DNA of 64,000 bases from Thiovibrio frasassiensis (GTDB lineage Bacteria; Desulfobacterota; Desulfobulbia; Desulfobulbales; Desulfurivibrionaceae), in the NCBI RefSeq assembly GCF_029607905.1, contig NZ_JAPHEH010000001.1:1765530-1829529 (forward strand). The letters run 5' to 3'. Below, piece by piece: positions 13,164 through 41,154 of this stretch (position 1 is the stretch's first letter; every line of letters starts with the position of its first letter). Below the pieces are notes generated by a model. That model was given only the letters and a program-made list of their open reading frames with translations, was not told the origin of the DNA and did no database searches. Position numbers and translations under genes: made by a program.

Positions 13164-14357
13164 TTACGAGAGCGAGAGCAGCAGGGGAACCAGCAGCTTG
13201 GGCTCACAGTAAGGGGTACTTTCCTCACTGACCAGCGGACAGTCAAGCAACTGAATTCCCATGTCCATAAGCCTGTTTGGATCGACTTCCCCGGAGTAGC
13301 CACCATTTTTTGAGTCAACCAGGACACAGTTCAGGACCTGATGGGTGGGAATTTTGGGATTGTTTTTCTTCAGATAGCGCAGCAGGGTTTCGATTTGCTC
13401 CATGAGACTCAGGCCAACAGTCTCCGGGTCTTGGCCCATGCTGGGAATATATATTTTCGGGCAGACGTTTTTTTGAATAGCCTCGGTTACTCCCTCCGGC
13501 AACAGGCTGGCAATAACGCTGGAGTAAAAGCTGCCCATGGGGTAGCAGATCAGTTGGGCGGAGTTGATCAGCTTGGTGAGCTTGTTGCGGACCCTTGGCC
13601 AAACTTCGCCCTTGGAGGTGGGTGAGGTGGTCATGGTCAGAAAAAGGTGGCGGATCTTGTTCTGCAGGGGAGGGACCTCCTTGCCGGTCAGCAGGTGCTG
13701 TCCCACCACAACCTGGCCGTTGTCAAGTAGCGCCCCTAGGTGGAGATACCGGTTGAGTACCGGTCGGACCGTGCCCCTGGCCTCAACCAGTTTCGAAAAG
13801 AGGAAAATCACCGAATCAAGGTGGTGACCGTTGTCCAGATACCCGGCGGTGAGCACCAGATTGCCGATACTGGCCCCGAGCAGGTTAAAGCCTTGCGGCA
13901 TGCGGGCAAGGAAGATCTTCAGGTATTGGCGGACAATCTTGCGCAAGGGATCGGGGATGGCCGATACCAACCGATGCCGACCCGCCGCCATGGTTTGCAG
14001 CTCCGCGAGAAGCGTTTCGTTTTTCGCCTCCGTCGGAAAACGGTAGACAAAGAGCCGATACATTTCCGGGTTGCCCTGCACGCTCTGATCGGCCAGGTCC
14101 ATGAGCCGAGCTCGGATGTCGCCGATGGAGGGCATGGAAAACGCTTGCCTGAGGGTGGCTGAGCTGCCGCCGGAGTCGACTGCGGTCATGATGTGGCAGG
14201 AGTTGTGGGTGTAGTGGATCAGTTCCCGGCTCACCCCGCGCAGGGCACTGCCGCCGCTGAAGAAGAGCAGGCGCGGTCCCAGCTCCGGGGTGCGTCGGTA
14301 AAGTTCCACCCTGACCGGGTCGGGCAGGGTTATCTCTCTTTCTACCTTGATTTTCAT
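13164..14357 (-). CDS. GAK-system CofD-like protein
   Basis: 397 residues. The GGSALRGVSRELI segment near residue 35, HIMTAVDSGGSSATLRQAF and GASIGNLVLTAGYL match the CofD/YvcK family (2-phospho-L-lactate transferase fold), which binds a nucleotide-linked substrate. LICYPMGSFYSSVIASLLPEG and IPSMGQDPE follow later. The sequence fits the CofD-related family described only in GAK clusters rather than YvcK or true CofD. Its neighbours are the HprK-related kinase and ATP-grasp enzyme of the same system. The reaction is not known; transfer of a phosphoryl-linked group is a plausible guess from fold only. Confidence 0.82.
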   Translation of the reverse strand: MKIKVEREITLPDPVRVELYRRTPELGPRLLFFSGGSALRGVSRELIHYTHNSCHIMTAVDSGGSSATLRQAFSMPSIGDIRARLMDLADQSVQGNPEMYRLFVYRFPTEAKNETLLAELQTMAAGRHRLVSAIPDPLRKIVRQYLKIFLARMPQGFNLLGASIGNLVLTAGYLDNGHHLDSVIFLFSKLVEARGTVRPVLNRYLHLGALLDNGQVVVGQHLLTGKEVPPLQNKIRHLFLTMTTSPTSKGEVWPRVRNKLTKLINSAQLICYPMGSFYSSVIASLLPEGVTEAIQKNVCPKIYIPSMGQDPETVGLSLMEQIETLLRYLKKNNPKIPTHQVLNCVLVDSKNGGYSGEVDPNRLMDMGIQLLDCPLVSEESTPYCEPKLLVPLLLSLS

Positions 14358-14379: not shown

Positions 14380-15468
14380 TCAGTGGTCGCTGGCTTCGCT
14401 CAGGATACCGAGACAGGCATCACAGGCCCGGTCGAAATCGACTCCGCCACTGACTTCAAATACCCGCGTTTTTTCGAGGCGGTTCAGATACGCTTCTTCG
14501 GAATGGTCTATCTCCTCACCATCTTCCGGCAGGAAAAAAAGGCCGGTGGATTTCATGAAGGCGGGCAAGAGATCCCGTCGCTGGCGGATGTCCACCTCAC
14601 GAACCACCGTGGTCGCCTGGCCTCGCTGCCAGTTAAGGATCACCAACCCTTCCATGGGTGCGGCCAGGGCGAATCGACCAAGGCCAAAGCAGTGGTCGAG
14701 GAAGACATCGTACTTATGCTCCAGGCTCCAAAGCTCTTCCGGGCTGAGGTTGCGGAAACGTTCCCGCTCCTGCGGCGCAATCACTTCGATCAGGTCCGGG
14801 TTATTGAGTGCCGTGCCGGGGTTGATGCGAGGAAGTTTGGCCACCCCGTACATGAAAAGTCCCGGGCCATCCTCCCGGATCATCACCCGGTCATTGCTGA
14901 TAAAGTCCGTCCCCCGGCTCATCAGGTGCAAGGCCAGAGTGGATTTGCCCATGCCTGAAAAACCGGCCAGGGCAAGGCCCCGGCCATGCAGGACAACACC
15001 GGCGGCATGGCCCAGCAGGCAACCCTGGCGGAGCTTCCAGCTGATGAAGCGATTGTTGATGAAGTTGATCACCTGGTTGGTGTTGGCCAGACAGGGTCCG
15101 ACGGCCAGGCTGTCGTCGCCGCCGAAGGCGAAGACCATGCCGGTGAGGCGTTTGCGCACCAGGCGGCCGTCGGCCAGATCGACAAACTCCTCCTTGATCT
15201 TGCTCTTGCCCGGGTCCGGCTCCTTGCTCATGAAGATATGCGGGAGCTCAGGCGGCGGGGCTTCATGGGCGGTGAGCAGCATGTCCACCGTGGTGTCCTC
15301 CGAGAGAAAATCACTGAAGTATTCGCGCAGGTTGTAGGCCAGTTCGGGTGAATTGGTCTGCACCCCGATCCGGCAGTCATCAAAAGCGAGAATCAACTGG
15401 GCAACAGAAGGAAAAGCAGCGCGGATGCGCCGTACCAGTTGTTGGCGGTTCATGAGCATCGTGTTCAT
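14380..15468 (-). CDS. HprK-related kinase B of GAK system
   Basis: 362 residues. The Walker A motif is GFSGMGKSTLAL at about 169-180, just after GCLLGHAAGVVLHGRGLALA. ISNDRVMI supplies the acidic residue that follows the P-loop in HPr kinase. There is no HPr target in view and the N-terminal ~150 residues differ from HprK, in line with the HprK-related B family. It overlaps the ATP-grasp gene by 4 bp (ATGA), so the pair is translationally coupled. The kinase presumably phosphorylates a small molecule or protein made by the cluster. Confidence 0.82.
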   Translation of the reverse strand: MNTMLMNRQQLVRRIRAAFPSVAQLILAFDDCRIGVQTNSPELAYNLREYFSDFLSEDTTVDMLLTAHEAPPPELPHIFMSKEPDPGKSKIKEEFVDLADGRLVRKRLTGMVFAFGGDDSLAVGPCLANTNQVINFINNRFISWKLRQGCLLGHAAGVVLHGRGLALAGFSGMGKSTLALHLMSRGTDFISNDRVMIREDGPGLFMYGVAKLPRINPGTALNNPDLIEVIAPQERERFRNLSPEELWSLEHKYDVFLDHCFGLGRFALAAPMEGLVILNWQRGQATTVVREVDIRQRRDLLPAFMKSTGLFFLPEDGEEIDHSEEAYLNRLEKTRVFEVSGGVDFDRACDACLGILSEASDH

Positions 15469-16340
15469 GCCATTATCCTCCCGCAGACATAGTCCGCATA
15501 ATGTCGGGCCGCATTGATGCCGCAGGCCTCTTGAATGCCGCGGAAACCCCCGAAGGCGGAGACCTCGAACACCATCGGTCCGTCGGCTGTTTCCACCACA
15601 TCGACGCAGGTGAAATCCAGGCCAAAGGGGGCCTGGGCCTTGTGGGCCAGAGCGATGATCTCTTGCGACGGTTCGTGGGGCTGATACTTGCCCCCGGAGG
15701 CGGTGGTGGTGTTCCAGGCATCGTTGCGGACGGTGCGGGCGTAGGTGGTGAGGTATTGACCACCCAGGAATACCACGCCGAGGTCGCGGCCATTCAGTTC
15801 GATCTTTTTTTGGATGTACATGATCCGATGTTCGGCTTTATGTCGTTCGATAATTGCTCGGGCCTCAGGGCCGGGCTGCAATACGAACATTCCCCGTGCC
15901 TTGGTGGAGTAAAGCGGCTTGAAGACCGCTTCGCCATAGGTCGTAACTGCGTCCAAGGCTGCATCGACATCCTCGGTGATGGTCAGCGGCGGCATGGGAA
16001 TTCCGGTGAGCTGCAGGGTGATGGTGCAGGAGAGCCGGTCCAGCACCCGGATAATGCTCATGGGTTTGGAAAAGATCGGCATTCCCTGTTCGGCGAGAAA
16101 GCGGAAAACCTCCAAGCGGTCGAGCAGGTCTGGTGAGTAGCTCCTGCCGATTTTTTTGATGATCAGGCCGTCCAGAGAGTTGAGTTCAACCTCGCCGAAC
16201 ATGGCCCGGCCCGAGGGGAGGTCAAGTCGTACCGAGCTCGGGTCCACCAGTAAGCGGAAGCCGGTGCGTTCCGCCACCGAATCGGCGAGTTTCTCCGATG
16301 ACCAGCCGCCAGGAATGCCAATTACGCCAATTTTTTTCAA
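15465..16340 (-). CDS. GAK-system ATP-grasp enzyme
   Basis: I choose the TTG at 16340 as start: it has AGAGGGG five bases upstream, avoids overlap with the preceding gene and begins right at the conserved KKIGVIGIPGGWSSEKLAD. This gives 291 residues. The ATP-grasp core includes the lysine-containing AVFKPLYSTKARGMFVL, then YIQKKIEL...DLGVVFLGG and FTCVDVVE...VFEVSAFGGF for Mg-ATP binding. ATP-grasp enzymes join a carboxylate to an amine or thiol through an acyl-phosphate, so the system probably ligates a small molecule or peptide tail. Substrate unknown. Confidence 0.82.
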   Translation of the reverse strand: MKKIGVIGIPGGWSSEKLADSVAERTGFRLLVDPSSVRLDLPSGRAMFGEVELNSLDGLIIKKIGRSYSPDLLDRLEVFRFLAEQGMPIFSKPMSIIRVLDRLSCTITLQLTGIPMPPLTITEDVDAALDAVTTYGEAVFKPLYSTKARGMFVLQPGPEARAIIERHKAEHRIMYIQKKIELNGRDLGVVFLGGQYLTTYARTVRNDAWNTTTASGGKYQPHEPSQEIIALAHKAQAPFGLDFTCVDVVETADGPMVFEVSAFGGFRGIQEACGINAARHYADYVCGRIMA

Positions 16341-16363
16341 GGAAACCCCTCTTTTTAAAAATA

Positions 16364-18013
16364 TCAGTAGTACATGATGCCCGAAGGCAGAGAAAAGGTC
16401 TGCCATGGTTTGTCCTGATGCGCCAGAACCTTTTCCAGGAGAAAATGGGAGCGCAGGAACATCTCGTTGGCAAAATCGTTGTTCAGCTCAAAACGGGTGG
16501 AGGTGTAAAATGAGCGGGCCAGGGCAAGAGCCATACGCAACTCGAAGGTTTCATCGCCCTGCTCAACGGCGAAGTTCTTTGCCATCTGGTACATGCCCTT
16601 GGTGAACCAGTTGAGTCTTTCGCGCAGGTGCTCCTGAAATACCGGTTGTCTGAAGTTAGAGGCAATAAACACCGAAACATCCTGGATGTAGTCTGCCTCG
16701 CGGGAGCGGTAGAGATCGATAAACTGGATGCGCTCGCGCTCGGCATTGTAAATGATATTGTTGACATTAAAATCGCCGTGAATGAAGACGGAGAAGGGGG
16801 CTGCCAGTTCCTCTTCGATCTTGCGGCACTTTGCCAGCAGCTCGTCGGTGGCCATGACCTCCGAGGAACCGATGTCCTGGCTGGCCCGATGGAAGTCGGG
16901 ATGCACACTGAGCACGCTGTGCATTCTGGCCATGATTTGCGGGATGAAGTTGGCCTTGATCGGGGTCGTTTTTTTGGTCCGGGTCCATATCTCCAGAACG
17001 GTGGCGTGCAGCAGCATGCAGACGGTGTGCAGTTCGTCGGGGTCACCCTTGAGGATAATGGCTTCGAGGGTTCGTCCGGGGAGAAACTCCACCAGCAGGG
17101 AGGCGGTCTCCTCCGATTCCTGATAGCTGAACAGCCTGGGGGTCAGGTCGGGGAAGATCTCGTTCCACCGCTCCAGGTTCTTCTTCTCGGTCAGAATCTT
17201 TTCCCGATTGCCCTCCTTGAAGATGCTGCTCTGCGTCTGAGGGGCGAGAAAGGGCAGGCCGCCATTCCCCTGAACCTTACTGATGCGGCAGCCGGAGCGG
17301 CTACCCAGGATGGAGGAAAACTCCACCTCGGCAAGGCTGGTGCGCAGTCCCGATTTGCTGAGGGTTTCCTCAAGGGCCTGGAACTGTTCGATTTTGATCT
17401 TCTCGCCCAGGATGGAAAGGAGCAGTGCCTCGCCGATATTGAGCAACGAATCGCCCATCCGCTCCAGGTACCGGAAGATGAACAGCACCGTGATCAGGTT
17501 TTCAATCTCCTTGCCCCTCCGCAGCTCCTCCATGATCTTGTCAAAGTTTTCCTTGTAGATGACATCGATCTGGTTCTCGGCCCGGCAAATGGCAAGGGCC
17601 TGGCCCATGTCCCCCTTTTCGAGGACCGGGATGACCACCTGCAGGTGTTCGGCAAGAATATCGAAAATCTGCTGATAATCGAAGTGCTGGAGAATCGCAT
17701 GTTTGTTGAGGTAGTGGAGTTGATCCGCAGCGCTGACGCAGAAGTCGCCGATGCGTTCCAGGTTGACGCAGATGGTGTGGGTTGCCTGAATGCGGTCCCT
17801 CTCCCGTTGGCTGATGGTCTTGGCCTCGCCCAAGGTGGTGAAGCAACGGTTTTCGATCACCGTTTTCAGGTTGTCGATGTAGTCGTCCCGGCTGTTGATC
17901 TGCTGGAAAGCGGCTGCATCGCCGTTTTGCAGGAAATCGAGGGTGTCGTCGAGCTGACGGGCAACCTCAACAACCATAAAACTGAGATTTTCTTTGAGTG
18001 CGGCGGTCAGCAT
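16364..18013 (-). CDS. PhoU-like and APH-kinase fusion protein in GAK cluster
   Basis: 549 residues with two parts. Residues 1-~215 carry two PhoU-type three-helix repeats with their metal-binding signatures (DYIDNLK, NLERIGDF, ENQIDVIY, YLERMGDSLLNIGE). Residues ~240-549 look like an aminoglycoside-phosphotransferase/choline-kinase fold: FIHGDFNVNNIIYNAE matches the HGDxxxxN catalytic loop and FIDLYRSREADYIQDV the magnesium loop. PhoU modules sense or relay phosphate status through Pst and PhoR. An APH-like kinase phosphorylates small molecules. The fusion, in a GAK cluster beside pst-phoU-phoB, suggests phosphate-dependent control. That is inference. Confidence 0.75.
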   Translation of the reverse strand: MLTAALKENLSFMVVEVARQLDDTLDFLQNGDAAAFQQINSRDDYIDNLKTVIENRCFTTLGEAKTISQRERDRIQATHTICVNLERIGDFCVSAADQLHYLNKHAILQHFDYQQIFDILAEHLQVVIPVLEKGDMGQALAICRAENQIDVIYKENFDKIMEELRRGKEIENLITVLFIFRYLERMGDSLLNIGEALLLSILGEKIKIEQFQALEETLSKSGLRTSLAEVEFSSILGSRSGCRISKVQGNGGLPFLAPQTQSSIFKEGNREKILTEKKNLERWNEIFPDLTPRLFSYQESEETASLLVEFLPGRTLEAIILKGDPDELHTVCMLLHATVLEIWTRTKKTTPIKANFIPQIMARMHSVLSVHPDFHRASQDIGSSEVMATDELLAKCRKIEEELAAPFSVFIHGDFNVNNIIYNAERERIQFIDLYRSREADYIQDVSVFIASNFRQPVFQEHLRERLNWFTKGMYQMAKNFAVEQGDETFELRMALALARSFYTSTRFELNNDFANEMFLRSHFLLEKVLAHQDKPWQTFSLPSGIMYY

Positions 18014-18026
18014 GGTTCAGGTGCCA

Positions 18027-18299
18027 TCATGACTCGATGCTCATGGTGGAGGAGCGCTGGTCTTTGATGACAGGCTTGATCTCCGACCATGATAATTTGA
18101 TGGAAAGTTTGTTGATCCCATCCTTCTTCTTTGCCTGGACCGAAAATTTCATCAGATCATCCACCCGCATAACCATCTTCTCGCCGTTGGACTTGAGGAT
18201 GATGCGCCCCTTTTCGATGGAGTCGGTCAAGGAGACGAGATAGGTCTTGATGGAATCTGCGTCCTGCAGTGATTCGTAATCAAATTTTTTCGTGGACAT
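18027..18299 (-). CDS. Amphi-Trp domain protein
   Basis: 90 residues from the second of two nearby ATGs; the first (18305) directly abuts the GAGGT site while 18299 has six-base spacing. The C-terminal part SVQAKKKDGINKLSIKLSW matches the amphi-Trp domain, named for an alternating amphipathic strand ending in LSW. Earlier in the protein are IEKGRIILKSNGEKMVMRV. The domain is a recurrent partner in GAK clusters; function unknown. It lies 13 bp upstream of the PhoU-kinase fusion gene. Confidence 0.78.
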   Translation of the reverse strand: MSTKKFDYESLQDADSIKTYLVSLTDSIEKGRIILKSNGEKMVMRVDDLMKFSVQAKKKDGINKLSIKLSWSEIKPVIKDQRSSTMSIES

Positions 18300-18363
18300 G
18301 CTCATACCTCGAATGATTTAGTGGTCCGGTAAAATTCTCAACAGTTACAAGTACAAGCGCAGG

Positions 18364-19530
18364 TCAACCCGCCAATCTCGCCCTGTATTCTTGCATCACG
18401 TCGCGTTTGTCCATGTGGGCCACCACCAGTTTTTTGCGGATGGCCAGGTCGCTCCAGGGTGGCTGCACCCCGATCTCCCGGTTAACCTTGAGGTGGTTTC
18501 GCTCGTGGGGCGGCCGGGTCTTCTCGCTCATGTGGGTGTCATCCCCCATGAAAACCAGCAGCCGCTTCTGTGACAGACTAGCCTCACGATTCTTCCGGTT
18601 GAGCACGGTGATGAGAAAATCAGTGTACTCCCAGGACTGCGGGTTCCAGACCTCATAGCCATCCACGTCATAGTCGGCCAGGAGAATGGGCCAAAACTGC
18701 TCCGGATGGGGGATAACCACTCCTGCCCCCAGACCGCGGGCTTCCTCGATGATCTCCGAGGTGCGATAGAAAAATTTGGGGGAAAAATTCCGCTTGACGA
18801 TCTCCTTGACCGCCTTCAGAAAGGCTTGGGCACGGTTGATGGCCGTATCACCGTATTCCGGGCGCAGGGTGTTGAAGAAGTCGCGCAGCAGTTTGTTCTT
18901 GATGCTGTCCTGCGGCACCTGATCCAGGTGCTGCTCCAGCAATTTATTGAGCTTTTTCACATAGATGCGGACAAATCCGACCAGCTCCGCATCGGCTCCG
19001 GTTTCTCCGGCGGCCTCATCGAGCCGCTCTTCCACCGGGTTGATGATGGTGTGGATAAAGTCAAAAAGCTGGGAAGAGCGGTAATTCCGGGTATGGGCCA
19101 GCTGCGCCTTGAGAACCCCGGCCCGCTCAAGCCTGCTCGTTTCGAGGTGAAGCAGCAACTGCACCTTGCGGTTGAATCCCCGGGAGTAGCAGTCCACCTC
19201 GACCCCGCTGTAATCACCGTAGCTCATTAAAATATTGTGCTGGGTAGGGATGATCAGCTCATCCTTCCGGTTTGGGAAGGTGGCGCTGATACGTTGCTCA
19301 ATCAGCTCCATGGGTACGAATTCGGGATGCCAATGGAGGGCCATGATCCCCTGCTGCCGGGGATAGACCGTTTCCGGGGTCAGAACCTGCCGGATCTGTT
19401 CGGGGGTCAGTTCGGTCGATGTAATGGCAAAAAACCGCTGCTCATCGCTCTCGGTGATCTCTTCCGGAATCAAATCCGGCAGGTCGTGGGGAACCATTTC
19501 CGATCTATGTTTTGGCTTGACCAGTTTCAT
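18364..19530 (-). CDS. Unknown protein of GAK cluster
   Basis: I use the ATG at 19530 (MKLVKPKHRS); the frame runs back to 19608 but only through a TTG without a ribosome site. 388 residues, soluble-looking, no signal peptide or membrane span. Visible features: DLPDLIPEEITESDEQRFFAI, a histidine-bearing IMALHWHPEFVPMELIEQ, a conserved-looking NILMSYGDYSGVEVDC, and a C-terminal GDDTHMSEKTRPPHERNH. The H-x-H and H-x-E style residues could bind metal, but I cannot assign a fold. Its position inside the cluster implies a shared role. I do not recognise the family. Confidence 0.7.
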   Translation of the reverse strand: MKLVKPKHRSEMVPHDLPDLIPEEITESDEQRFFAITSTELTPEQIRQVLTPETVYPRQQGIMALHWHPEFVPMELIEQRISATFPNRKDELIIPTQHNILMSYGDYSGVEVDCYSRGFNRKVQLLLHLETSRLERAGVLKAQLAHTRNYRSSQLFDFIHTIINPVEERLDEAAGETGADAELVGFVRIYVKKLNKLLEQHLDQVPQDSIKNKLLRDFFNTLRPEYGDTAINRAQAFLKAVKEIVKRNFSPKFFYRTSEIIEEARGLGAGVVIPHPEQFWPILLADYDVDGYEVWNPQSWEYTDFLITVLNRKNREASLSQKRLLVFMGDDTHMSEKTRPPHERNHLKVNREIGVQPPWSDLAIRKKLVVAHMDKRDVMQEYRARLAG

Positions 19531-19635
19531 GGATGATGCCTGCTCCGTGGCTTGGGCTGTACCGAAACCGCAAAAAAAATCCACGGCGCCGGCTGGTATC
19601 ACCTGCAAAATTATACCAAAGACCCGTTATTGGAA

Positions 19636-20184
19636 TTATTTGTGCTGATCATGGCAGAGTTTCTTCATGGCCTTGAGCTCGGCGTATTTTTCCTGCATGG
19701 CCACAAGGTCACTATTCTCGCAGGTCACGTTGAGCTGGACACAGAGCTTGGCGTATTGGTCATAGTGCTCGTCGCCGTGGCCCGGGTAAGCCACCATGAG
19801 CTCCGAATCGGCAATGAACAAATCGATCTCACCTTTCTCGGGCATGATGCCCTGCTTGAGTGCATCGCCCATGGACTTAAAACACTTGTCCATCCGCTTC
19901 TTCACCGTTTTGTACTTGGGCTTGCAGTCGGGTTCCGTCTCTTCGCAGGATCCCTCGCCGCAACCTGTCCCGGCCACGACAGTCTTCACCTTGGCCTTCA
20001 TGTGGACCTGGTCGCCCTCTCGCTTCAGTTCAAGCTTCATCTTTTTGAAGTCATCGAAGGCAAGGTCAAATTCCTTTAACTCATCCATGTTGCCGTGTTC
20101 GATCTCTTGGGCCAGGGCGCGAAGGAAATCTGCAGCATTTTTGGAGGACATCACTTTCTCGAATTTCAGCTCTTTGCCGGACAT
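19636..20184 (-). CDS. GAK-system XXXCH-domain protein
   Basis: 182 residues; start after AAGGGG. The C terminus ends KKLCHDQHK, which fits the XXXCH domain named after a conserved CH near the end. A middle Cys pair (GCGEGSC) sits in a linker. The N-terminal segment FLRALAQEIEHG...FDDFKKMKLELKREGDQVHMKAKVK resembles the amphi-Trp-like half seen in these proteins. Such proteins are short, charged and of unknown role, and might be the substrate or carrier of the system. It is the first gene of the cluster, with PhoB-box-like repeats upstream. Confidence 0.8.
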   Translation of the reverse strand: MSGKELKFEKVMSSKNAADFLRALAQEIEHGNMDELKEFDLAFDDFKKMKLELKREGDQVHMKAKVKTVVAGTGCGEGSCEETEPDCKPKYKTVKKRMDKCFKSMGDALKQGIMPEKGEIDLFIADSELMVAYPGHGDEHYDQYAKLCVQLNVTCENSDLVAMQEKYAELKAMKKLCHDQHK

Positions 20185-20755
20185 GATTTGTTCCCCTTAT
20201 TGTGAGTGGATGATGGCGAGGCGCTTAATGCGCTGAATTTTCTAGGATACTATCCGGCTGATGCGAGGAATCGGTTAGGTGTGCGTTAGTTTTTCGTTGA
20301 GAAGGAGAGGATAAGCGGAAGGACAGGAATAGGGGATGAGCATTAAAAAGGGGGCAGCAAGGCACGACTTTTTGAGAAAAAACTTTGGGGCCAGAATGAA
20401 GAGGATTTCTTATGGCAGATACACAAAAAATAACCTGCGCGAGAACCACCTTTGGCCATAATTTTCAACAGAGCTCAGGGTCGTGAAGATGTGCAACCCC
20501 TTGGGTGGGCGCGGGTTAGCATGGACAAAAATACAGAGCGTATTAGCGTAAAATCAGAGCTCGAAAGAAATCTTTCTGGTTTTTCTGGTCAGCTGTCTGT
20601 GGAGAGAAGAGGACGGTCTTTCGGCTTGGCAGGGCAGGTCTATCAAGATGAGGCGACGGGAGGTACCTCTGGATATGGTTGGACGGATTCAACAAAAAGA
20701 AATTGCCGCAGCCGTCACCCGGAAGCAACAGCCCTGAATTGCCTTTAGGGTCACT
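20185..20755. other. Intergenic region between GAK cluster and phoB
   Basis: 570 bases, noticeably less coding-like than the rest. Besides the 11-bp-spaced repeats at 20272-20300 it holds a perfect 11-base palindrome GGATACTATCC at 20245-20255, which also contains TAGTAT (minus strand), a possible -10. A plus-strand frame at 20452-20748 has no family features and I do not consider it a gene. Confidence 0.5.
20272..20300 (-). promoter_or_regulatory. PhoB-box-like repeats upstream of GAK cluster
   Basis: On the plus strand CGGTTAG, GCGTTAG and TCGTTGA start at 20272, 20283 and 20294, exactly 11 bp apart with 4-base spacers. In the direction of GAK transcription these read TCAACGA, CTAACGC, CTAACCG. 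The inner edge lies 88 bp from the first GAK start codon, the same distance as the equivalent repeats from the pstS start. PhoB boxes are 7-bp repeats with 11-bp period. The assignment is inference from pattern and context. Confidence 0.5.
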
Positions 20756-21457
20756 TTACCCTTGCATCCGGTAGCCGATGCCGCGCACGGTTTCGATGTA
20801 TTTGCCTGCCTCGCCCAGTTTTTTTCTCAGTCCGAAGACCTGCACGTCCACGGCCCGGGGAGTGATGACATAGTCATAGCCTCTGACCCCGTCGATGATC
20901 TGCTGGCGGTTGAAGACCCAGCCCGGCCGTCTGGCCAGGAGTTCCAAGATGGAAAATTCGGTAACCGTCAGGGCGATGGCCTCCTCCCCCACCAGAACCT
21001 CATAGCGGTTAGGATCGATGGTGATTCCGTGGATGGCAAGGGGGCCGTTTTTCTTGGCTCCCCCACTCTCCTCGCTCAGGCCTTCCTTGCGGCGCAGGGC
21101 AGCCTTGATCCGGGAGATGAGGATCTTCGGGCTGAAGGGCTTGGTGATATAATCGTCCGCCCCGAGATCGAGGCCCGCGGCCATGTCGTTTTCTTCGCTT
21201 TTGGCGGTCAGCATGACAATGGGCAGGTTCTTGGTCTTCGGGTCCTTGCGTACCAGCTTGCAGACCTCAAAGCCGCTCAAGCCCGGGAGCATGAGGTCCA
21301 GCACGATCAGCTCCGGCTTTTCCCGCTTGATGACGCTGAGTGCCTGTTCGCCGTTGTCGGCATAGACCACGTGGAATCCGGCCTTGGCCAGGTTGTAGCC
21401 CACCAGCTGCTGGATGTTTTCATCGTCTTCCACGACAAGGATGGTTTCTCTCGCCAT
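20756..21457 (-). CDS. phoB: Phosphate regulon response regulator PhoB
   Basis: 233 residues, normal length. The receiver domain has the acidic pair VVEDDENI, the phospho-acceptor in LIVLDLMLPGLSG and the conserved lysine in DYITKPFS. The C-terminal OmpR-type winged helix contains LTVTEFSILELLARRPGWVFNRQQI and ...DVQVFGLRKKLGEAGKYIETVRGIGYRM. It is the last gene of the pst-phoU-phoB run, 28 bp after phoU. Phosphorylated PhoB would activate the phosphate-starvation genes. Its usual partner PhoR is not adjacent; a PhoR-type kinase lies at 39260-41068. Confidence 0.9.
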   Translation of the reverse strand: MARETILVVEDDENIQQLVGYNLAKAGFHVVYADNGEQALSVIKREKPELIVLDLMLPGLSGFEVCKLVRKDPKTKNLPIVMLTAKSEENDMAAGLDLGADDYITKPFSPKILISRIKAALRRKEGLSEESGGAKKNGPLAIHGITIDPNRYEVLVGEEAIALTVTEFSILELLARRPGWVFNRQQIIDGVRGYDYVITPRAVDVQVFGLRKKLGEAGKYIETVRGIGYRMQG

Positions 21458-21485: not shown

Positions 21486-22169
21486 CTATCGTGTTATATG
21501 ATGGCGGACAATCTTGCCCTGCGCCATATAAATAATGTCTTCGCAGATATTGGTGCAGTGATCGGCGATGCGTTCGAGGCTTCTGGCCACGCTGATCAGC
21601 TTGGCCAGATAGACGTGCTGGCTGGGATCGCGCATGATGATCTCCTCCATCTGGGTGCGGATCGCGCCTTTTTCCCGATCCACCTCGTCATCCTCCAGGC
21701 AGACCCGGTAGGCGAGATCGGTGTCTTCGTTGACAAAGGCATCCATGGTATTGTGAAACATCCAGACGGTTTTTTCAAACATGGCGTTGAACATCTCCGG
21801 AATCTGCATGGCGTCTGAGGCAAACTTGACCGGATCGATGGCATGGAGCAGGAGCACCTTGTCGGCGATCTTGGCCGCCAGGTCGCCGATGCGTTCCAGG
21901 TCGTTGTTGATTTTGAGCACCGTGACGATGAAGCGCAGGTCTCCGGCCACGGGTTGATGCAGGGCGAGGAGACGCAGGCAATCCTCCTCAACATTGATCT
22001 CGAAGGTGTCGATTTCATCCTTGTCCCGTTCAATAACCTCACGGGCCATATCGGGATCTTTTCCCCACAGCGCTTTGACGGATTTCTGCATGTTTTCCTG
22101 CACCGCCGTGCCGAGATAGACGATCTGATTCTTAAGTTTTTCGATTTCTGTCTGAATATTTTTAGCCAT
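21486..22169 (-). CDS. phoU: Phosphate signalling protein PhoU
   Basis: 227 residues with two three-helix PhoU repeats: the first carries ERDKDEIDTFE and NDLERIGDLAAKIAD, the second EDDEVDREKGAI and RSLERIADHCTNICEDI, matching the E/DxxxD metal-binding signatures. PhoU links the Pst transporter to PhoR and holds PhoB inactive when phosphate is plentiful. It lies between pstB and phoB in the same direction; the 196-base gap before it contains no gene. Confidence 0.93.
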   Translation of the reverse strand: MAKNIQTEIEKLKNQIVYLGTAVQENMQKSVKALWGKDPDMAREVIERDKDEIDTFEINVEEDCLRLLALHQPVAGDLRFIVTVLKINNDLERIGDLAAKIADKVLLLHAIDPVKFASDAMQIPEMFNAMFEKTVWMFHNTMDAFVNEDTDLAYRVCLEDDEVDREKGAIRTQMEEIIMRDPSQHVYLAKLISVARSLERIADHCTNICEDIIYMAQGKIVRHHITR

Positions 22170-22365
22170 GAAGTTTCTCCTTATTATTCCTTGATGTGGC
22201 CTCAGGCCGTCACTTTGTTTCCGCGCTTTTCGTAACCGTAGTGCCGCAGATGCGCGAAAGAGGCCTGTCCGCCATACACCCTGTTATGCGGACCATGCCG
22301 ATGACAGCTAAGCGAGCACAGCGAGACTGCGAAGCAGATGCGGTGCTACTGGATGGTTCAGTGGT

Positions 22366-23154
22366 TCAACCGAACCGGCCGGTGATATAATCCTCGGTTT
22401 CTTTTTTCTCGGGCATGGTGAACAGGGTCTGGGTCGGCCCGTATTCGATGAGCTCCCCGAGATACATGTATGCCGTGTAGTCGGAGATCCGCGCCGCCTG
22501 CTGCATGTTGTGGGTGACGATGATAATGGTGTATTCCCCCCGCAATTCGCGGATGAGATCCTCGATCCGGGAGGTGGAGCGCGGGTCCAGGGCCGAGCAG
22601 GGCTCATCCATGAGAATGATCTCCGGGCTTACGGCAATGGCCCTGGCGATGCAAAGCCGCTGCATCTGGCCGCCGGAAAGGCCCATGGCAGACTGGTGCA
22701 GCCGGTCCTTGACCTCGTCCCAGAGGGCCGCTTTTTTCAGGCATTTTTCCGCAGCCTCGTCGAGCAGGGTGCGGTCCTGAATGCCGGCGATCCGCAAGCC
22801 GTAAACGATGTTCTCGTAAATGGACTTGGGGAAGGGGTTCCATTTCTGGAAGACCATCCCGACCTTGCGCCGCAGCTCGATCACATCAAGGGAGGGATCG
22901 TTGATGTTTTCCCCGTTGATTTTGATGGATCCCTCAAGATGCAAGCCGTCGACCAGATCGTTCATCCGGTTGATGCAGCGGATCAGGGTGGATTTGCCGC
23001 AGCCGGAGGGGCCGATCAGGGCGGTGACCTGCTGGCCTGGAATCCCGAAGCTCAGATCCTTGAGCGCCTGGCTCGTGCCATAATAGAGGTTCAGGTTTTC
23101 GACCTCGACCTGGGGATTGTCGATACGGATTATGGCGGTGTCATTTGTTTGCAT
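22366..23154 (-). CDS. pstB: Phosphate ABC transporter ATP-binding protein
   Basis: 262 residues, standard PstB size. Walker [10 protein letters not shown], signature LSGGQMQRL and Walker [14 protein letters not shown] are all intact, followed by the switch histidine in ITHNMQQA-like VTHNMQQA. It drives phosphate import with ATP at the inner membrane together with PstA and PstC. It follows pstA by 12 bp. Confidence 0.95.
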
Positions 23155-23166
23155 TGTTTCTCCTTA

Positions 23167-24759
23167 TCACACATCAACCACGGAGTGGCGTTGTCGCATT
23201 TTGTTGCGCAGATAGATGGCCGTGCTGGTCATGGCCAACACGATCAGGATCAGCAGCAGGGTGGTGACATACACCATGGGCTTGGCCGCTTCCACGTTGG
23301 GGGACTGGAAGCCGATGTCGTAGATGTGAAATCCCAAATGCATGAATTTCCGGTCCAGATGCAGATAGGGAAATACTCCGTCCAGGGGCAGAGCCGGGGC
23401 GAGTTTGACCACCCCGGTGATCATCAGGGGTGCAACCTCGCCGGCGGCCCGGGCCATGGCCAGGATAAAGCCGGTGAGGATGCCGGGCGAGGCCATGGGC
23501 AGCAAAATTCGGGTCAGGGTCTGGAGTTTGGTGGCGGCCAGGGCCTGAGAACCTTCCCGGATGCCGGGGGGAATCGAGCCCAAGGCCTCTTCCGTCGCGA
23601 CGATAACCACCGGCACGGTGAGCAGCCCCAGGGTGAGGCTGGTCCAGAGGATGCCGCCGGTGCCGAAAGTCGGGGTGGGCAGCCGTTCGGGGAAAAACAG
23701 CTGGTCAATGCCGCCGCCGATCCCGTAGATGAAAAAACCCAGGCCGAAGATGCCGTAAACGATGGAGGGGATGCCGGCCAGGTTGTTGACGGCGATGCGG
23801 ACCATCTTCACCAGCCAGCCCTCCCTGGCGTATTCGCGCAGATAGATACCGGCCAGCACCCCCAGCGGAAAGGAGAGGATACTCATGAGAAAGATCAGCA
23901 TGATGGTGCCGAAGATCGCCGGAAACAAACCGCCCTCGGTGTTTGACTCCCGCGGGTCGTCGAAGAAGAGTTCCCGCAGCCGCTCCAGGTAATAGGTGCA
24001 TTTGGCGAGAAACGACATGGAGTTTGGCTGGTAGCTGCGGACAATGTTCACCAGGGCGATGGTCTGTGGCCGACCATTGGCATCGGTGAAGATCGCCTGG
24101 TTGGTGGAAAGGGCCCTGGCTTTATCGCTGAGAATGGAGACCAGTTCCTCAAACTCGGTTTTGAGTCCGTGCTTTTCGCCTTTCAGGGCGGCCAGGGCCG
24201 GGGTGTTTTCTTCCTTGTTATAGCGGGCCTTGGCCAACCGGTGGTCAATCAGTTCTACCCGCCGGTTGAGGTTGGCTATTTTCTTGCCCAGGAGGTTGAC
24301 CTCTTTCTTCCGAGAATCCAGGGCAGCAATGGTTTGTCCCAAACTGTTCGAACCTGTGGCGGGGGGCGCGATGCCGTGGACTTCGAATTCGCTGAGGTAT
24401 CCGTAAAAATTGCCGAATTCCAACCGTTCCAGGACATAGATATTTTCCGGATAGCTGAGGCTGGTAATCTCGCTGGAATCAACCCATTTGAAGTCAAGGC
24501 CGTACAGGTCCCTGTTGCCGATCTTGAACTGAAGCCGCTTCTTTTCCGTGTGGGGAATGATTTCTTCCTGGACAATCTCTCCGAGGAGATGGCGGCCGTC
24601 GCTCAACGTTGCCAGGGCGACTTTTTTCGGCCAGAAAACCGCAAGGCCGTTGGCCAGCACCACATAGAAGAGCAGCAGGGTCAAGAAAAGGATCAGGGAA
24701 AGGGCAAGGCCAGTGGCCCAGACAAATGGCTCTCCCTGCCGCCAGAATTTTTTGTTCAT
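23167..24759 (-). CDS. pstA: Phosphate ABC transporter permease PstA, long form
   Basis: 530 residues, almost twice the E. coli protein (about 300). The first ~240 residues hold one membrane helix (LALSLILFLTLLLFYVVLANGL) and a large periplasmic region with a coiled segment. The C-terminal permease domain has the usual five-six helices and the EAA-type loop EEALGSIPPGIREGSQALAATKLQT that contacts PstB. Long PstA proteins of this kind are known from Pseudomonas and other proteobacteria. Co-transcribed with pstC (18 bp gap) and pstB. Confidence 0.92.
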   Translation of the reverse strand: MNKKFWRQGEPFVWATGLALSLILFLTLLLFYVVLANGLAVFWPKKVALATLSDGRHLLGEIVQEEIIPHTEKKRLQFKIGNRDLYGLDFKWVDSSEITSLSYPENIYVLERLEFGNFYGYLSEFEVHGIAPPATGSNSLGQTIAALDSRKKEVNLLGKKIANLNRRVELIDHRLAKARYNKEENTPALAALKGEKHGLKTEFEELVSILSDKARALSTNQAIFTDANGRPQTIALVNIVRSYQPNSMSFLAKCTYYLERLRELFFDDPRESNTEGGLFPAIFGTIMLIFLMSILSFPLGVLAGIYLREYAREGWLVKMVRIAVNNLAGIPSIVYGIFGLGFFIYGIGGGIDQLFFPERLPTPTFGTGGILWTSLTLGLLTVPVVIVATEEALGSIPPGIREGSQALAATKLQTLTRILLPMASPGILTGFILAMARAAGEVAPLMITGVVKLAPALPLDGVFPYLHLDRKFMHLGFHIYDIGFQSPNVEAAKPMVYVTTLLLILIVLAMTSTAIYLRNKMRQRHSVVDV

Positions 24760-24777
24760 GGTCTTTGCTCCAAAATA

Positions 24778-27000
24778 TTAATAGCGGCCGTATTTTTTAC
24801 GGAGTCGTTCGCGGATAAGCTCCGCCCCGGTGTTTACCAGAAAGGTCAGGGCGAAAAGCATGGAGGCGCAGAGGAAAAGCACCCGGTACAGGGTGCCGCC
24901 CATGGGCGCTTCCGGGATTTCCACCGCAATGTTGGCGGAGAGCGTCCGCATGCCGTTGAAGATGGACCAGTCCAGAATGGGCGTGTTGCCGGTGGCCATG
25001 AGCACAATCATGGTTTCCCCCACCGCCCGGCCAAAGCCGATCATGATTGCGGCAAAGATCCCGGGGCTGGCCGAGGGCAGCACCACCCGCCAGATCGTCT
25101 GCCAGCGGCTGGCCCCCAAGGCCAGGGAGGCGGCGGTCAGGCTGGGGGGGATGTTGGAAATGGCGTCCTCGGTGATGGAAAAGATAATGGGGATTACGGC
25201 GATGCCGAGGCCGAAGGCAATGATGATGCAGTTGCGCTGGTCATAGCGCATACCCAAATCGTTATACAGCCATTGCTTGAAGTTGCCGGCAAAGAGCAGC
25301 GGCTCAACGGTGGGGGCGATCCCCATGGCCAGGGCTGTTGCCAGGAGGATGACCGGCGCCAACATCAGAAATTCATACCCGTTGCAGAAGTTCTGTAGGG
25401 TCGGGGTTTTGTAAAAAGGTCTGAGTGCGGCCATGATTCCCACGAAGATCAGGGGCAGGAGAATCACGGTCAGGATCACCGAGAGGATGGCTTTTTCCAC
25501 GATGGGCGCCAGCCAGAGGGCGATGAGGAAGCCGATGACCACCGAGGGGATCGAGGCCATGATCTCCACCACCGGCTTGACGGTCTTTTTGAAGGTGGCG
25601 GTGCTGAACTGGCTGGTGTAGACCGCACCGAAGATGGCGAGCGGCACGGCAAAGATCATGGCGTACAAGGTTCCCTTGATGGTGCCGAAAAGCAACGGCA
25701 CCAAGCTGAATTTTGCTTCAAAATCATCGGAGCCGGATGAGGATTGCCAGACATATTCCGGCTTGTCGTAGCTTTCGTACCAAACCTTGCCGAACAGGGT
25801 TTTCAGGCTGATCTCCGGGTGGGGGGCATCGATTTGCCAAACGGTAAGGGAGTTGTCCGGCCCGAGGCCGATCAGGCCGTTGCCCTGGCCGGAAATGCCC
25901 ACCATAAGCATGGGGGGGGCAAGGTCCAGCAGATGGTTTTCGCTGGTCATATGGTCAAAATGGGTTTTGCCGTCGGCTCCGACGCTGACCAGGGACTTGG
26001 AGCGGCGGCTTGGGATGATGCGTTCCACTGGCGATTGATGTCCGGTCAGGGTATGGGTTTTGCGGAGTCTTTGTGTCCGGTCCTTTCCTGTCCCGGTCCA
26101 GATCTGACTCCAGGTGACCAGGCCGCCTTCGGCGTCGCCCACGGCCACGGAGATATCGCCAAAGACCATGGCCAGGGCGGTGACGGCCTTATTGTCCGGC
26201 ACGGCCACCACATTGTCGGTGCGGGTGGCGGTTGCATTTTCCCGGAGGTCCCAGCGCAAGAGGCTGCCGGTGTCGGTGCCGGCAAACAGGGTGGCGCCTT
26301 TTTCATCGACGGTGAAGGCGGTGATCTTGCCCGGCATCTCCTCCGCGATGAGAAAAGAAAAATTCTCTTTCGTTTCATTGTCCAGCAAATCGGTGGTGAC
26401 AACTTCCTGATCTATCTGGAATCGGTTGTCGGCCAGAAGGGCCACTTCAGTCAGGCGTCCTTCGTGGACGCGGATCGCTACGCTCTTGACCTGAGCCGGA
26501 TAGGTTCGGGCCGGATACTCTCCGAGCTGGCTGATCTCGGGCTGGATGGTTCTTTGCCCGTTTGCGGCATAGAGCGAGCGGAAATCGACCCTTGAAACGC
26601 TTACGCTGTTGTCCTCCCAAAGGAGGGCAAAAATGTTGTTCTTGGTGTCCTCGATGGAAAGCACCTTCGCCGTACGGGTTGAGGCGGGAAGGGTGCTAAA
26701 AGTTTTTCCGGAGGCGAGGTCGTAAAAGGAAAACATGCCGGTATCGTTAAGGGTGAATCCCACCTCCTGGGTATTGTCCATGCCCACGGCAAGAACCGGG
26801 GCGAGGGCTGAGCCGACTTGGAGGCGGTGCGTAATCTTGGCGCTGGCCGGCTGGAAAAGCGGCAGGGTCACCCGGACGATCAGAACCAGAATGGCGATGA
26901 CGCTGGCAATGACCAGCAACCCGCCAAGGGTGATGGCTCGCGTGGCAAGACGGTCTTGCCTGCGGACTTTTTTGATGAACTGTTTGTCGAGCTTCTGCAT
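24778..27000 (-). CDS. pstC: Phosphate ABC transporter permease PstC, long form with extracytoplasmic domain
   Basis: 740 residues against ~320 in E. coli. After an N-terminal membrane helix (GGLLVIASVIAILVLIVRVTLPL), residues ~50-410 look like a beta-propeller-type repeat region: GVGMDNTQEVGF-like strands, TGHQSPVERII and repeated AVGDAEGGLVTW/LVSVGADGKTHF blocks. The permease domain follows, with the EAA loop EDAISNIPPSLTAASLALGASRWQT. Long PstC proteins occur in Pseudomonas and other genera. The extra domain's purpose is unproven; it may sense or dock PstS. Confidence 0.9.
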   Translation of the reverse strand: MQKLDKQFIKKVRRQDRLATRAITLGGLLVIASVIAILVLIVRVTLPLFQPASAKITHRLQVGSALAPVLAVGMDNTQEVGFTLNDTGMFSFYDLASGKTFSTLPASTRTAKVLSIEDTKNNIFALLWEDNSVSVSRVDFRSLYAANGQRTIQPEISQLGEYPARTYPAQVKSVAIRVHEGRLTEVALLADNRFQIDQEVVTTDLLDNETKENFSFLIAEEMPGKITAFTVDEKGATLFAGTDTGSLLRWDLRENATATRTDNVVAVPDNKAVTALAMVFGDISVAVGDAEGGLVTWSQIWTGTGKDRTQRLRKTHTLTGHQSPVERIIPSRRSKSLVSVGADGKTHFDHMTSENHLLDLAPPMLMVGISGQGNGLIGLGPDNSLTVWQIDAPHPEISLKTLFGKVWYESYDKPEYVWQSSSGSDDFEAKFSLVPLLFGTIKGTLYAMIFAVPLAIFGAVYTSQFSTATFKKTVKPVVEIMASIPSVVIGFLIALWLAPIVEKAILSVILTVILLPLIFVGIMAALRPFYKTPTLQNFCNGYEFLMLAPVILLATALAMGIAPTVEPLLFAGNFKQWLYNDLGMRYDQRNCIIIAFGLGIAVIPIIFSITEDAISNIPPSLTAASLALGASRWQTIWRVVLPSASPGIFAAIMIGFGRAVGETMIVLMATGNTPILDWSIFNGMRTLSANIAVEIPEAPMGGTLYRVLFLCASMLFALTFLVNTGAELIRERLRKKYGRY

Positions 27001-27062
27001 GGGGTGGTCCTTGAAGTCCTGGGGGCGTGCCGCGGGAAGGTTCTACCGAGAAGCCCCCGGGA

Positions 27063-27127
27063 AGGCGCCAGCTTGCAAGCTTGGCCTTGCCGGGGGTGGG
27101 AGGTAAACTGTCCCGGCCAAGGCCGGG
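27063..27127. repeat. Palindromes between pstS and pstC
   Basis: Two inverted repeats lie in the pstS-pstC gap: AGCTTGCAAGCT inside a longer imperfect dyad (27063-27089) and CCCGGCC/GGCCGGG at 27112-27127. Such intercistronic hairpins often protect the upstream message, here pstS, which is needed in excess over the membrane subunits. Neither has a T run. Confidence 0.45.
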
Positions 27128-27133
27128 GAGGAG

Positions 27134-28132
27134 TTACTTGAGCTTTGCCAGCTCTTTTTCGAGGACACTGTCGGGCAGGGGCAGGAATCCGTCTTTTATC
27201 ACGATCTCCTGGCCGGCCTTGGAAAGGATATACTTGAGGAACTCGGCGGTCTGGGTGGGCAAAGGCTTGTTCGGCGCTTTGGCCACATAGATGAACAGAG
27301 TCCTGGAGAGCGGATAACTGCCGCTCAAGACGTTCTCGTAATTGGCCTCCTGGGCTTTTTCCCCGGTTTTCTTGCTCAGGGCGATGGCCTTAACCCCGGA
27401 GGTCTTATAGCCGATGCCGGAGTAGCCGATGCCGTTGCGATCCTCGGTGATCCCCATGACCACCGAAGCGGAGCCGGGCTGTTCCTTGACGGTATCCTTA
27501 TAGTCGCCTTTGAACAGGGCATGTTCCTTGAAATATCCGTAGGTGCCGGAGGCGGAGTTACGGCCGTAGATGCTGATCGGCGACTGCTGCCAAGGGCCGG
27601 TAAGGCCAAGCTGCCCCCAGGTGGTGATCTCTTCGGCCATCCCGCCCTTGCGGTTTTTGGAGAAGACCGCATCAACCTGTTGCAGGCTCATTTCCTTGAT
27701 CGGGTTGTCCTTATTGACAAAGACCGCCAAGGAGTCGAAGGCCACGCCGATCTTGGTCGGAGCGTAGCCGTATTTCTTGGTGAAGGCATCAATCTCTTCG
27801 GACTTCATGGGCCGGGACATGGGGCCGAGCTGGGAGGTGCCGGAAATGAGGGCCGGGGGAGCAGTGCTTGAGCCCTTGCCTTCGATCTGGATGCGGACAT
27901 TGGGATATTCCTTGCGGAAGCCTTCTGCCCAATAGGTCATCAGATTGTTCAAGGTGTCTGAACCGATACTGTCGAGATTGCCGGAAACCCCGCTTACTTT
28001 TTTATAGACCGGGGTTTTCGGATCCACGGTAATGGGATTGGCAAAAGCGGCTGTGGCGGCTACTGCGACCAGACAGCCTGCCAGGGCAGCCTTGGTAAGT
28101 GATCTGGTCAAAAAACCTTTTTGCATCGTCAT
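27134..28132 (-). CDS. pstS: Phosphate-binding protein PstS
   Basis: 332 residues; start ATG after AAGGAG. The signal peptide spans about residues 1-31 (AALAGCLVAVAATAAFA). The phosphate-binding pattern includes LDSIGSDTLNNLMTYWAEGF, EGKGSSTAPPALISG and YGRNSASGTYGYFKE, placing it in the PstS family that uses SGT-type loops. It captures phosphate in the periplasm for PstCAB. It is the first gene of the pst-pho run and has PhoB-box-like repeats 88 bp upstream of its start. Confidence 0.95.
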   Translation of the reverse strand: MTMQKGFLTRSLTKAALAGCLVAVAATAAFANPITVDPKTPVYKKVSGVSGNLDSIGSDTLNNLMTYWAEGFRKEYPNVRIQIEGKGSSTAPPALISGTSQLGPMSRPMKSEEIDAFTKKYGYAPTKIGVAFDSLAVFVNKDNPIKEMSLQQVDAVFSKNRKGGMAEEITTWGQLGLTGPWQQSPISIYGRNSASGTYGYFKEHALFKGDYKDTVKEQPGSASVVMGITEDRNGIGYSGIGYKTSGVKAIALSKKTGEKAQEANYENVLSGSYPLSRTLFIYVAKAPNKPLPTQTAEFLKYILSKAGQEIVIKDGFLPLPDSVLEKELAKLK

Positions 28133-28203: not shown

Positions 28204-28248
28204 ACAATATGCCGCCCAATTGTTAGTTTTTTATTAGGGTTTTATTAG
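28204..28248 (-). promoter_or_regulatory. PhoB boxes and -10 of the pstS promoter
   Basis: On the plus strand TTGTTAG, TTATTAG and TTATTAG begin at 28220, 28231 and 28242, an exact 11-bp period with T-rich spacers. In the pstS direction they read CTAATAA, CTAATAA, CTAACAA. Ten bases further downstream on the minus strand is TATTGT (28209-28204), the spacing expected between the last box and a PhoB-dependent -10. Strong candidate by pattern, position and known regulation of pstS in other bacteria. Confidence 0.72.
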
Positions 28249-28297: not shown

Positions 28298-28351
28298 TCT
28301 CTAATCTTCTTTTAACCCGCTTTTAATCAAATGATGATTCCCCTCTAATAT
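28298..28351 (+). promoter_or_regulatory. PhoB-box-like repeats and -10 of the porin promoter
   Basis: Facing the other way, TCTCTAA, CTTTTAA and CTTTTAA start at 28298, 28309 and 28320, again 11 bp apart; a degenerate copy (ATGATGA) follows at 28331. TAATAT at 28346-28351 could be the -10. The array lies 118-170 bp before the porin start, so pstS and the porin may be a divergent pair controlled by PhoB. Confidence 0.6.
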
Positions 28352-29904: not shown

Positions 29905-30006
29905 GAAGCGGAAAATAATCTCCCTGTAATCATCTCCTAATAAATGGGCGGTAGTGTGTCCGCGAGAGAGCCAAGATCCCCACAACCGCATATGGAGGTT
30001 ATCGCC

Positions 30007-38986: not shown

Positions 38987-39026
38987 CCGTCAGAGGAATG
39001 TTAGATTTGCAATAGGGTTTGATTCG
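38987..39026 (-). promoter_or_regulatory. PhoB-box-like repeats upstream of the 799-residue protein gene
   Basis: On the plus strand CCGTCAG, ATGTTAG, GCAATAG and TGATTCG start at 38987, 38998, 39009 and 39020, all 11 bp apart. In gene orientation they read CGAATCA, CTATTGC, CTAACAT, CTGACGG; the last two are close to the E. coli CTGTCAT unit. TTATGG seven bases further on could be the -10. Weaker than the pstS array. Confidence 0.42.
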
Positions 39027-39087: not shown

Positions 39088-39282
39088 TCAGGACTTGGCC
39101 TGGTCGAGGAAGAACCGCACCCAGCATTCCCAGGCCATGGTCTCCAGGGTGCAGTCGCTGGGGCAGGGATGCTGCAAAGCCGCATGGGGGCAAAGCCCGC
39201 ACCGGGTGGTGCAGATGTGTTTGGCGGCCTTTTCCAGGGCGGTGTAGAGGGTGGAGGTGTCAGGCGGGGGTGCTGTTTTCAT
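39088..39282 (-). CDS. Small Cys-rich protein after phoR
   Basis: 64 residues; an AAGGAG site lies upstream of the ATG, which is inside the last codons of the PhoR-type kinase gene (23-bp overlap). Seven cysteines: CTTRCGLCPHA and CPSDCTLETMAWECW. The pattern could bind zinc or an iron-sulfur cluster. Family not recognised. Co-transcription with phoR suggests a link to phosphate sensing, but nothing in the sequence proves it. Confidence 0.55.
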   Translation of the reverse strand: MKTAPPPDTSTLYTALEKAAKHICTTRCGLCPHAALQHPCPSDCTLETMAWECWVRFFLDQAKS

Positions 39283-41068: not shown

Positions 41069-41125
41069 ACGAATCCCTGGGGCGGTTGGAGTGAATAGGG
41101 GTAACTCCAACAGAATAGCACGGGA

Positions 41126-41154
41126 TTGTTAGAATGCGATCAGGATATTGTAAG
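41126..41154 (-). promoter_or_regulatory. PhoB-box-like repeats upstream of phoR
   Basis: TTGTTAG, CGATCAG and TTGTAAG start at 41126, 41137 and 41148 on the plus strand, exactly 11 bp apart. In the phoR direction they read CTTACAA, CTGATCG, CTAACAA. TATTCT eight bases downstream on the minus strand can serve as -10. This would give PhoR autoregulation, as is common for phoBR. Confidence 0.5.

Follow-up and report, generated by a model that had tools for sequence, protein, structure and literature searches.

A PhoB-box-like repeat array before the GAK gene cluster of Thiovibrio frasassiensis and its relatives

To our knowledge, the GAK system is known solely as a set of curated family models, and no paper on its function was found in the openly licensed literature, which is no proof of absence. 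When would a cell need such a system? The question is raised by a locus of Thiovibrio frasassiensis at which a GAK cluster lies next to phosphate-uptake genes. In the window, by which we mean the whole stretch of 64,000 nucleotides analyzed here (contig NZ_JAPHEH010000001.1, positions 1,765,530 to 1,829,529), the pst-phoU-phoB genes run on the minus strand from 28132 down to 20756 and are followed, after a gap of 570 bp, by seven GAK-cluster genes. An earlier reading of the DNA had proposed that the gap carries PhoB boxes similar to those of pstS. The genes concerned are as follows:

21486..28132, minus strand: phoU, pstB, pstA, pstC and pstS (phoU above cut-off; pstC and pstS by generic Pfam domains)
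20756..21457, minus strand: PhoB-family response regulator in linkage with phoU and pst (highest-scoring NCBIfam model PhoB at 235.1 bits, cut-off 296.2)
19636..20184, minus strand: XXXCH-domain protein, first GAK gene (TIGR04358, 90.3 bits, cut-off 40)
18364..19608, minus strand: orf414, conserved GAK neighbour with a PHP-phosphoesterase-like fold in its model
18027..18305, minus strand: amphi-Trp domain protein (TIGR04354, 61.7 bits, cut-off 31)
16364..18013, minus strand: PhoU-APH fusion (PF01895, PF01636 and PF02958 above cut-off)
15465..16406, minus strand: GAK ATP-grasp enzyme (TIGR04356, 460 bits, cut-off 300)
14380..15468, minus strand: HprK-related kinase B (TIGR04355, 533.4 bits, cut-off 200)
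13164..14357, minus strand: GAK CofD-like protein (TIGR04357, 510.5 bits, cut-off 340)

All five NCBIfam models of the GAK system (TIGR04354-TIGR04358), for the ATP-grasp, HprK-related kinase B, CofD-like, amphi-Trp and XXXCH proteins, scored above cut-off in the cluster, which additionally contains orf414 and the PhoU-APH fusion, two proteins that matched none of these models. As displayed, the models do not mention phosphate. The PhoU domain previously noticed inside the cluster is borne out by PF01895 and belongs to the fusion, in which two PhoU repeats are joined to an aminoglycoside-phosphotransferase-like kinase domain. The phoB name rests on linkage, since the NCBIfam PhoB score is below its cut-off, and the genes that we take to be pstB and pstA are named from their neighbourhood and from general knowledge.

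The sites on which the argument turns are given below:

20272..20300, minus strand: PhoB-box-like array, TCAACGA AAAA CTAACGC ACAC CTAACCG on the gene strand
20261..20267, minus strand: CTCGCAT, a putative and degenerate fourth repeat that keeps the phase of the array
20247..20252, minus strand: putative -10-like hexamer TAGTAT, 8 nt after the fourth repeat
28220..28248, minus strand: PhoB-box array of pstS, the reference site, CTAATAA AACC CTAATAA AAAA CTAACAA on the gene strand

On the plus strand, the array upstream of the XXXCH gene reads as the 7-mers CGGTTAG (20272-20278), GCGTTAG (20283-20289) and TCGTTGA (20294-20300) in an exact 11-bp period. The original prediction had named the same three repeats and had compared their period with that of pstS; both hold, as the two arrays share the 11-bp step and the minus gene strand. 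With units of some 7 bp set 4 bp apart, the array has the direct-repeat form of Pho-regulon promoters.

Specificity was checked over the 2.84-Mb genome by patterns. The three-box pattern CTAAYN6CTAAYN6CTAAY, allowing at most two mismatches, matched nine times in the window, where shuffled sequence led us to expect 0.13, and only one further match was found in the remainder of the genome, which makes ten. Two overlapping matches of the nine precede XXXCH, two lie at pstS and one before the porin gene (28421), and the others fall at 29915 (one), at 38989-39026 (two) and ahead of a histidine kinase gene that we take to be phoR (one). The exact two-box form, CTAAY-N6-CTAAY, is confined to the pstS and XXXCH promoters, with two of its three genomic matches falling in the pstS array and the third upstream of XXXCH; 0.11 were expected in the window, where all three lie. 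When the 200 bp before XXXCH were shuffled 1000 times, one shuffle was equally good. Base composition alone does not make such pairs rare, because the exact two-box control read backward matched 18 times genome-wide (17 for the three-box control). The box is thus shared with the genome's own pstS and scarce elsewhere, as in a Pho regulon, with less specificity when the pattern is relaxed: YTAAY three times with at most two mismatches gave 25 genomic matches, many of them AT-rich, against 97 for its backward control. A strict matrix built from the pstS arrays of 13 congeners scored the XXXCH site at 12.5 bits, about eighth in the window, against 41.3 bits for pstS, so the XXXCH array is the weaker of the two; this pstS-only matrix was dropped as too narrow, its spacer letters being specific to pstS.

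The position of the array relative to its gene had also been put forward, namely an equal distance of 88 bp at both promoters. The figure itself is right (20272 to 20184 and 28220 to 28132), but it is not conserved across the genus, in which the first box stands 114-146 nt from the ATG in the six GAK promoters; the spacing being variable, we rejected the equal distance as evidence and regard it as coincidence. The distance to the putative -10 is more informative. Counting the degenerate fourth box, the repeats end just upstream of TAGTAT and replace a -35, as at pstS, where CATATT/CATAGT likewise stands 8 nt after the last box. The fourth-box phase reads CTCGCAT in the window, CTATCCT in genome G003 and TTAACCA in G014. 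Measured from the first box, a TAnnnT hexamer stands at offset 48 in four genomes (G000, G003, G014 and G009), at offset 49 in one (G010) and at offset 60 in G015, whose GAK promoter has five boxes. For pstS, arrays were present at all 14 pst-type pstS loci examined in congeners, with the hexamer CATATT/CATAGT at offset 37 in 13 of them by pattern and in G011 alike by eye. The longer -10 spacing, which the prediction had listed as a caveat, is 48-49 against 37, and the difference to the putative -10 is one 11-bp turn; the caveat therefore resolves into an array of four repeats, the last of which is weak in the window. Since further TAnnnT hexamers occur near each of the six GAK promoters (in the window, one lies 3 nt beyond TAGTAT) and choosing offset 48 is partly a choice, it is the common offset and not the motif that counts as evidence.

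Compared with pstS-type promoters of the Pho regulon, the GAK promoter is alike in its 11-bp-step repeats just before the -10, in having no good -35 and, within the same genome, in the repeat core. It differs in having one more (degenerate) repeat before the -10 and weaker boxes, and in fronting an operon of unknown function. Near the expected start of the XXXCH transcript, a short hairpin (GCGC-loop-GCGC, 20220-20234) appears to be kept in several congeners and is a possible 5'-UTR element.

We consider it highly probable (roughly 0.9) that the array is a PhoB operator before the GAK operon's own promoter, and that PhoB controls the operon. In low phosphate, phosphorylated PhoB, encoded 0.6 kb upstream, would bind the direct repeats with their 11-bp step; with the last repeat 8 nt from the -10 and no good -35, RNA polymerase would be recruited as at pstS, and XXXCH, the PHP-like orf414, amphi-Trp, PhoU-APH, ATP-grasp, HprK-related kinase B and CofD-like genes would be switched on. 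What is read from the DNA is the repeats, their rarity, conservation and spacing, and their likeness to pstS in the window genome and several others; PhoB binding, activation and a single transcript of seven genes are what we infer. Because the array is built as at phosphate-uptake genes and is kept in relatives, the GAK system is very probably on when phosphate is short.

Conservation within the genus was followed in 17 genomes, six of which, the window's included, had an XXXCH match of at least 92 bits; the promoter in the window was compared with those of the five congener loci (L047-L051). The array was present in 6/6 of these promoters, with 0-2 mismatches among 15 core letters, and for none of them did more than 1 of 1000 shuffles match as well; the flanks above it had diverged, and other periods gave 5-7 mismatches. 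When every position of the five congener loci was scanned on both strands (74,847 bp), the three-box pattern with at most two mismatches matched nine times, and all nine matches fall at the five XXXCH promoters. An array kept in five congeners amid diverged promoters supports the PhoB-box reading.

The same loci bear on a different account, in which read-through transcripts of the pst-phoU-phoB operon would be the sole source of phosphate regulation for GAK, the array being a relic without function. The genes share a strand, the gap is 570 bp, and neither a terminator nor a pair of sigma-70 hexamers was found in it on the gene strand, so that read-through from phoB could also occur. Among the congeners, pstC, pstA, pstB, phoU and phoB precede GAK at L049 and a phoB does so at L047, the phoB distances being some 2.3 and 3.8 kb. 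Yet the arrays are also kept at L048, L050 and L051 (a short contig), where the DNA read contained no pst gene and no clear phoB (for L048 it covered just about 4 kb upstream of XXXCH, and L050 had two weak PhoB-family matches of 26 and 40 bits). They recur in distant genomes as well, and a relic would not be expected to retain its spacing to the -10. We therefore regard read-through as the sole route to be very unlikely and keep to an operator of the operon's own.

Beyond the genus, the boxes were scored with a generic matrix set by hand after the genus arrays had been seen; consequently the genus is no independent test of it, whereas the other families are. In a first set, arrays (shuffle p ≤0.01) were found at 17 of 28 clusters with at least four GAK genes, including 11 of 22 outside the genus. 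By contrast, none of 12 scored XXXCH genes outside GAK clusters had an array at p ≤0.01, which rules out the XXXCH gene alone as the signal (loci L065, L120 and L122-L125 were left unscored, their matches to the window protein being too weak or absent). Arrays were likewise absent from all seven promoters of split or partial GAK gene sets.

A second set was drawn from GTDB genomes by orf414 homology and comprised the best 80 of 207 relatives, a choice by which it leans to close relatives; the congeners of L047-L051 recur in it as five of the 80 loci, and the exclusion of L172, which had too little upstream DNA, left 79 promoters. As labelled, with the binning taken as given, they are mostly of Desulfobacterota type, with some from Zixibacteria, Phycisphaerae, Nitrospinota and others. 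A three-box score of at least 14 bits was reached by 18 of 79 promoters at period 11 and by 0-4 at each of nine other periods; on the same promoters the opposite strand gave 8 and a mirrored matrix 5, and 13 of 192 control genes (gap of at least 150 bp, same loci) reached this score. Paired cores, defined as TNAC or TAAT, stood at period 11 in 41 of 79 promoters against 3-12 of 79 at eleven other periods. The control genes, which include unmasked genes (apparently pstS), had them in 30 of 192 cases (Fisher p 2.5e-9), a value that is somewhat flattering because the paired core was chosen after earlier looks; a sounder control is given by the contrast among periods. These counts do not depend on our Desulfovibrio-type class (32 loci, mixed titles), a descriptive split that was compiled by record title and by the look of the promoters. 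With all six promoters of the genus and 41/79 of the wider set, the array is conserved before orthologous operons as in a Pho regulon, and its presence in other families with a sharp peak at period 11 supports PhoB boxes outside the genus. Chance similarity in an AT-rich gap might be suspected from the looser patterns, which match AT-rich places elsewhere, and from the mere 12.5 bits of the strict pstS matrix; in view of a footprint in every genus promoter and the period-11 peak over 79 promoters, it is scarcely credible.

The array is not universal. The other 38 of the 79 promoters had no paired core at period 11, and about half of the set lacks a recognisable array. Paired cores accompanied 29 of 46 loci with CofD and 12 of 33 without it, some of the latter being cut contigs, and several GAK variants without a CofD gene had no array at their promoters.

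Two variants of the cluster deserve mention. Loci L206, L209, L221 and L234, which have no CofD gene, share an upstream motif containing GTAGCATG in place of PhoB-like arrays, perhaps the site of another regulator. At L196 (Delta proteobacterium NaphS2), the gene order is rearranged, with the CofD-like gene between PhoU-APH and ATP-grasp.

The promoters of pstS and GAK were also set side by side within single genomes. We sought pstS in 25 genomes and found it in 23, which gave 30 pstS upstream regions to set against GAK. Arrays of one kind stood at both in 7 of 23 genomes (L167, L170, L171, L181, L184 of Desulfatibacillum alkenivorans, L196 of NaphS2, and L198). The remaining 16 had no clear likeness: three of them were loosely alike (L187, L220 and L223, with GTCAC repeats at pstS and TTCAC/GTGAC/GTAAC repeats at GAK) and 13 gave no clear match. 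The pstS copy retrieved for this comparison is possibly not the one under regulation, and the DNA compared reached to the profile match, not to the start codon. In addition, PstA, PstC or PhoU was encoded in 8 of 80 GAK loci, six of which had PstA or PstC. At a density of 26 above-threshold pstS per 101 Mb or so, about 0.3 would be expected in the 1.31 Mb of these loci, a rough expectation that compares different genes.

OmpR-family regulators bind direct repeats, and the 11-bp step is common to the family. The repeats could accordingly be bound by another OmpR/PhoB-family regulator with a similar site, to which the sub-threshold PhoB score of the regulator gene would lend itself. We consider this unlikely: in the genome the exact two-box pattern is limited to GAK and pstS, the looser matches in the window lie before the phoR-like kinase gene and the porin beside pstS, and seven other genomes repeat the pairing of pstS and GAK. 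PhoB is thus the regulator that we favour.

Compared with the E. coli PhoB-box consensus CTGTCAT, as given in a passage of PMC3333781, the GAK array has the repeat core CTAAY. In Desulfovibrio vulgaris, PhoB shifted AGGTTACAGCATAGTTAC in a gel and failed on a substituted site, according to the relevant passage of PMC6456213; this sequence is GTTAC-N6-GTTAC, period 11, the same step as in the GAK array. Its reverse complement, GTAAC-N6-GTAAC, has the TAAC core in common with the GAK array, whereas the D. vulgaris box GTNAC differs in its first letter from CTAAY. Passages of PMC3333781 describe that box as a 6-bp repeat with a 4-bp spacer and list pst, PhoU and HD/EAL genes among the PhoB targets. 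The main-text passages of both papers (PMC3333781; PMC6456213) name no GAK gene or operon, and the terms ATP-grasp, HPr and CofD are absent from the main text of a phosphate study on D. alaskensis (PMC5193443).

What the operon might do was approached through two of its proteins. The model of orf414, which had no Pfam or NCBIfam match, has a mean pLDDT of 84.9, and its predicted fold resembles 3o0f (BAD_1165) and 9etk (RNase AM), with Foldseek E of 1.1e-5 to 2.5e-5, probability 1.00, 14-17% identity and a TM-score of 0.35-0.38 by query length. We take both structures to be PHP proteins, the former a metal-dependent phosphoesterase; orf414 has invariant His/Asp residues that might serve as metal ligands. 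The XXXCH model (mean pLDDT 78.8, pTM 0.48) combines an amphi-Trp-like domain, scored at 25.5 bits against a cut-off of 31 in the N-terminus, with a C-terminal four-helix bundle. The latter resembles cytochrome c' (Foldseek probability 1.00, profile E 0.0022), but the Foldseek E is merely 2.6e-3, with none at 0.001 or better, and the heme motif CxxCH is incomplete, the first cysteine being absent (KKLCH).

With its kinase, phosphoesterase and ligase folds, GAK may be a phosphate-starvation module that manages phosphoryl groups in phosphate shortage, in which the two kinases and the ligase would probably have the XXXCH and amphi-Trp proteins as substrates or partners. A bolder version, to which we give rather less than even chances, is that GAK is a widespread phosphate-starvation machine, in which small amphi-Trp/XXXCH adaptors are acted on by PhoU-fused and HprK-like kinases, a CofD-like transferase, an ATP-grasp ligase and a PHP-like phosphoesterase, XXXCH being a cytochrome c' fold that has lost its heme. 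If true, phosphate would be stored, spared or sensed by GAK in a new way. In either case, a predicted and conserved PhoB operator tells when this function-unknown system would be needed, and thereby makes the question testable; it would also enlarge the Pho regulon known from sulfate reducers and related bacteria.

Further arrays occur in the window outside the GAK promoter:

28301-28327, plus strand: CTAAT/TTAAC/TTAAT array, some 94 bp upstream of the porin gene (28421, plus strand), which diverges from pstS
29915-29943, plus strand: array before a small ORF, beyond which lie the genes of a chemotaxis receptor (30280-31851) and of an EAL-GGDEF protein (31848-33728)
38987-39026, minus strand: array upstream of an ORF of 799 aa (36518-38917) that had no Pfam match
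41126-41154, minus strand: array preceding the presumed phoR, a histidine kinase gene (39260-41110), about 11 kb from pstS

The porin is probably phosphate-controlled, and the chemotaxis receptor and EAL-GGDEF genes that follow the array at 29915 may be so too.
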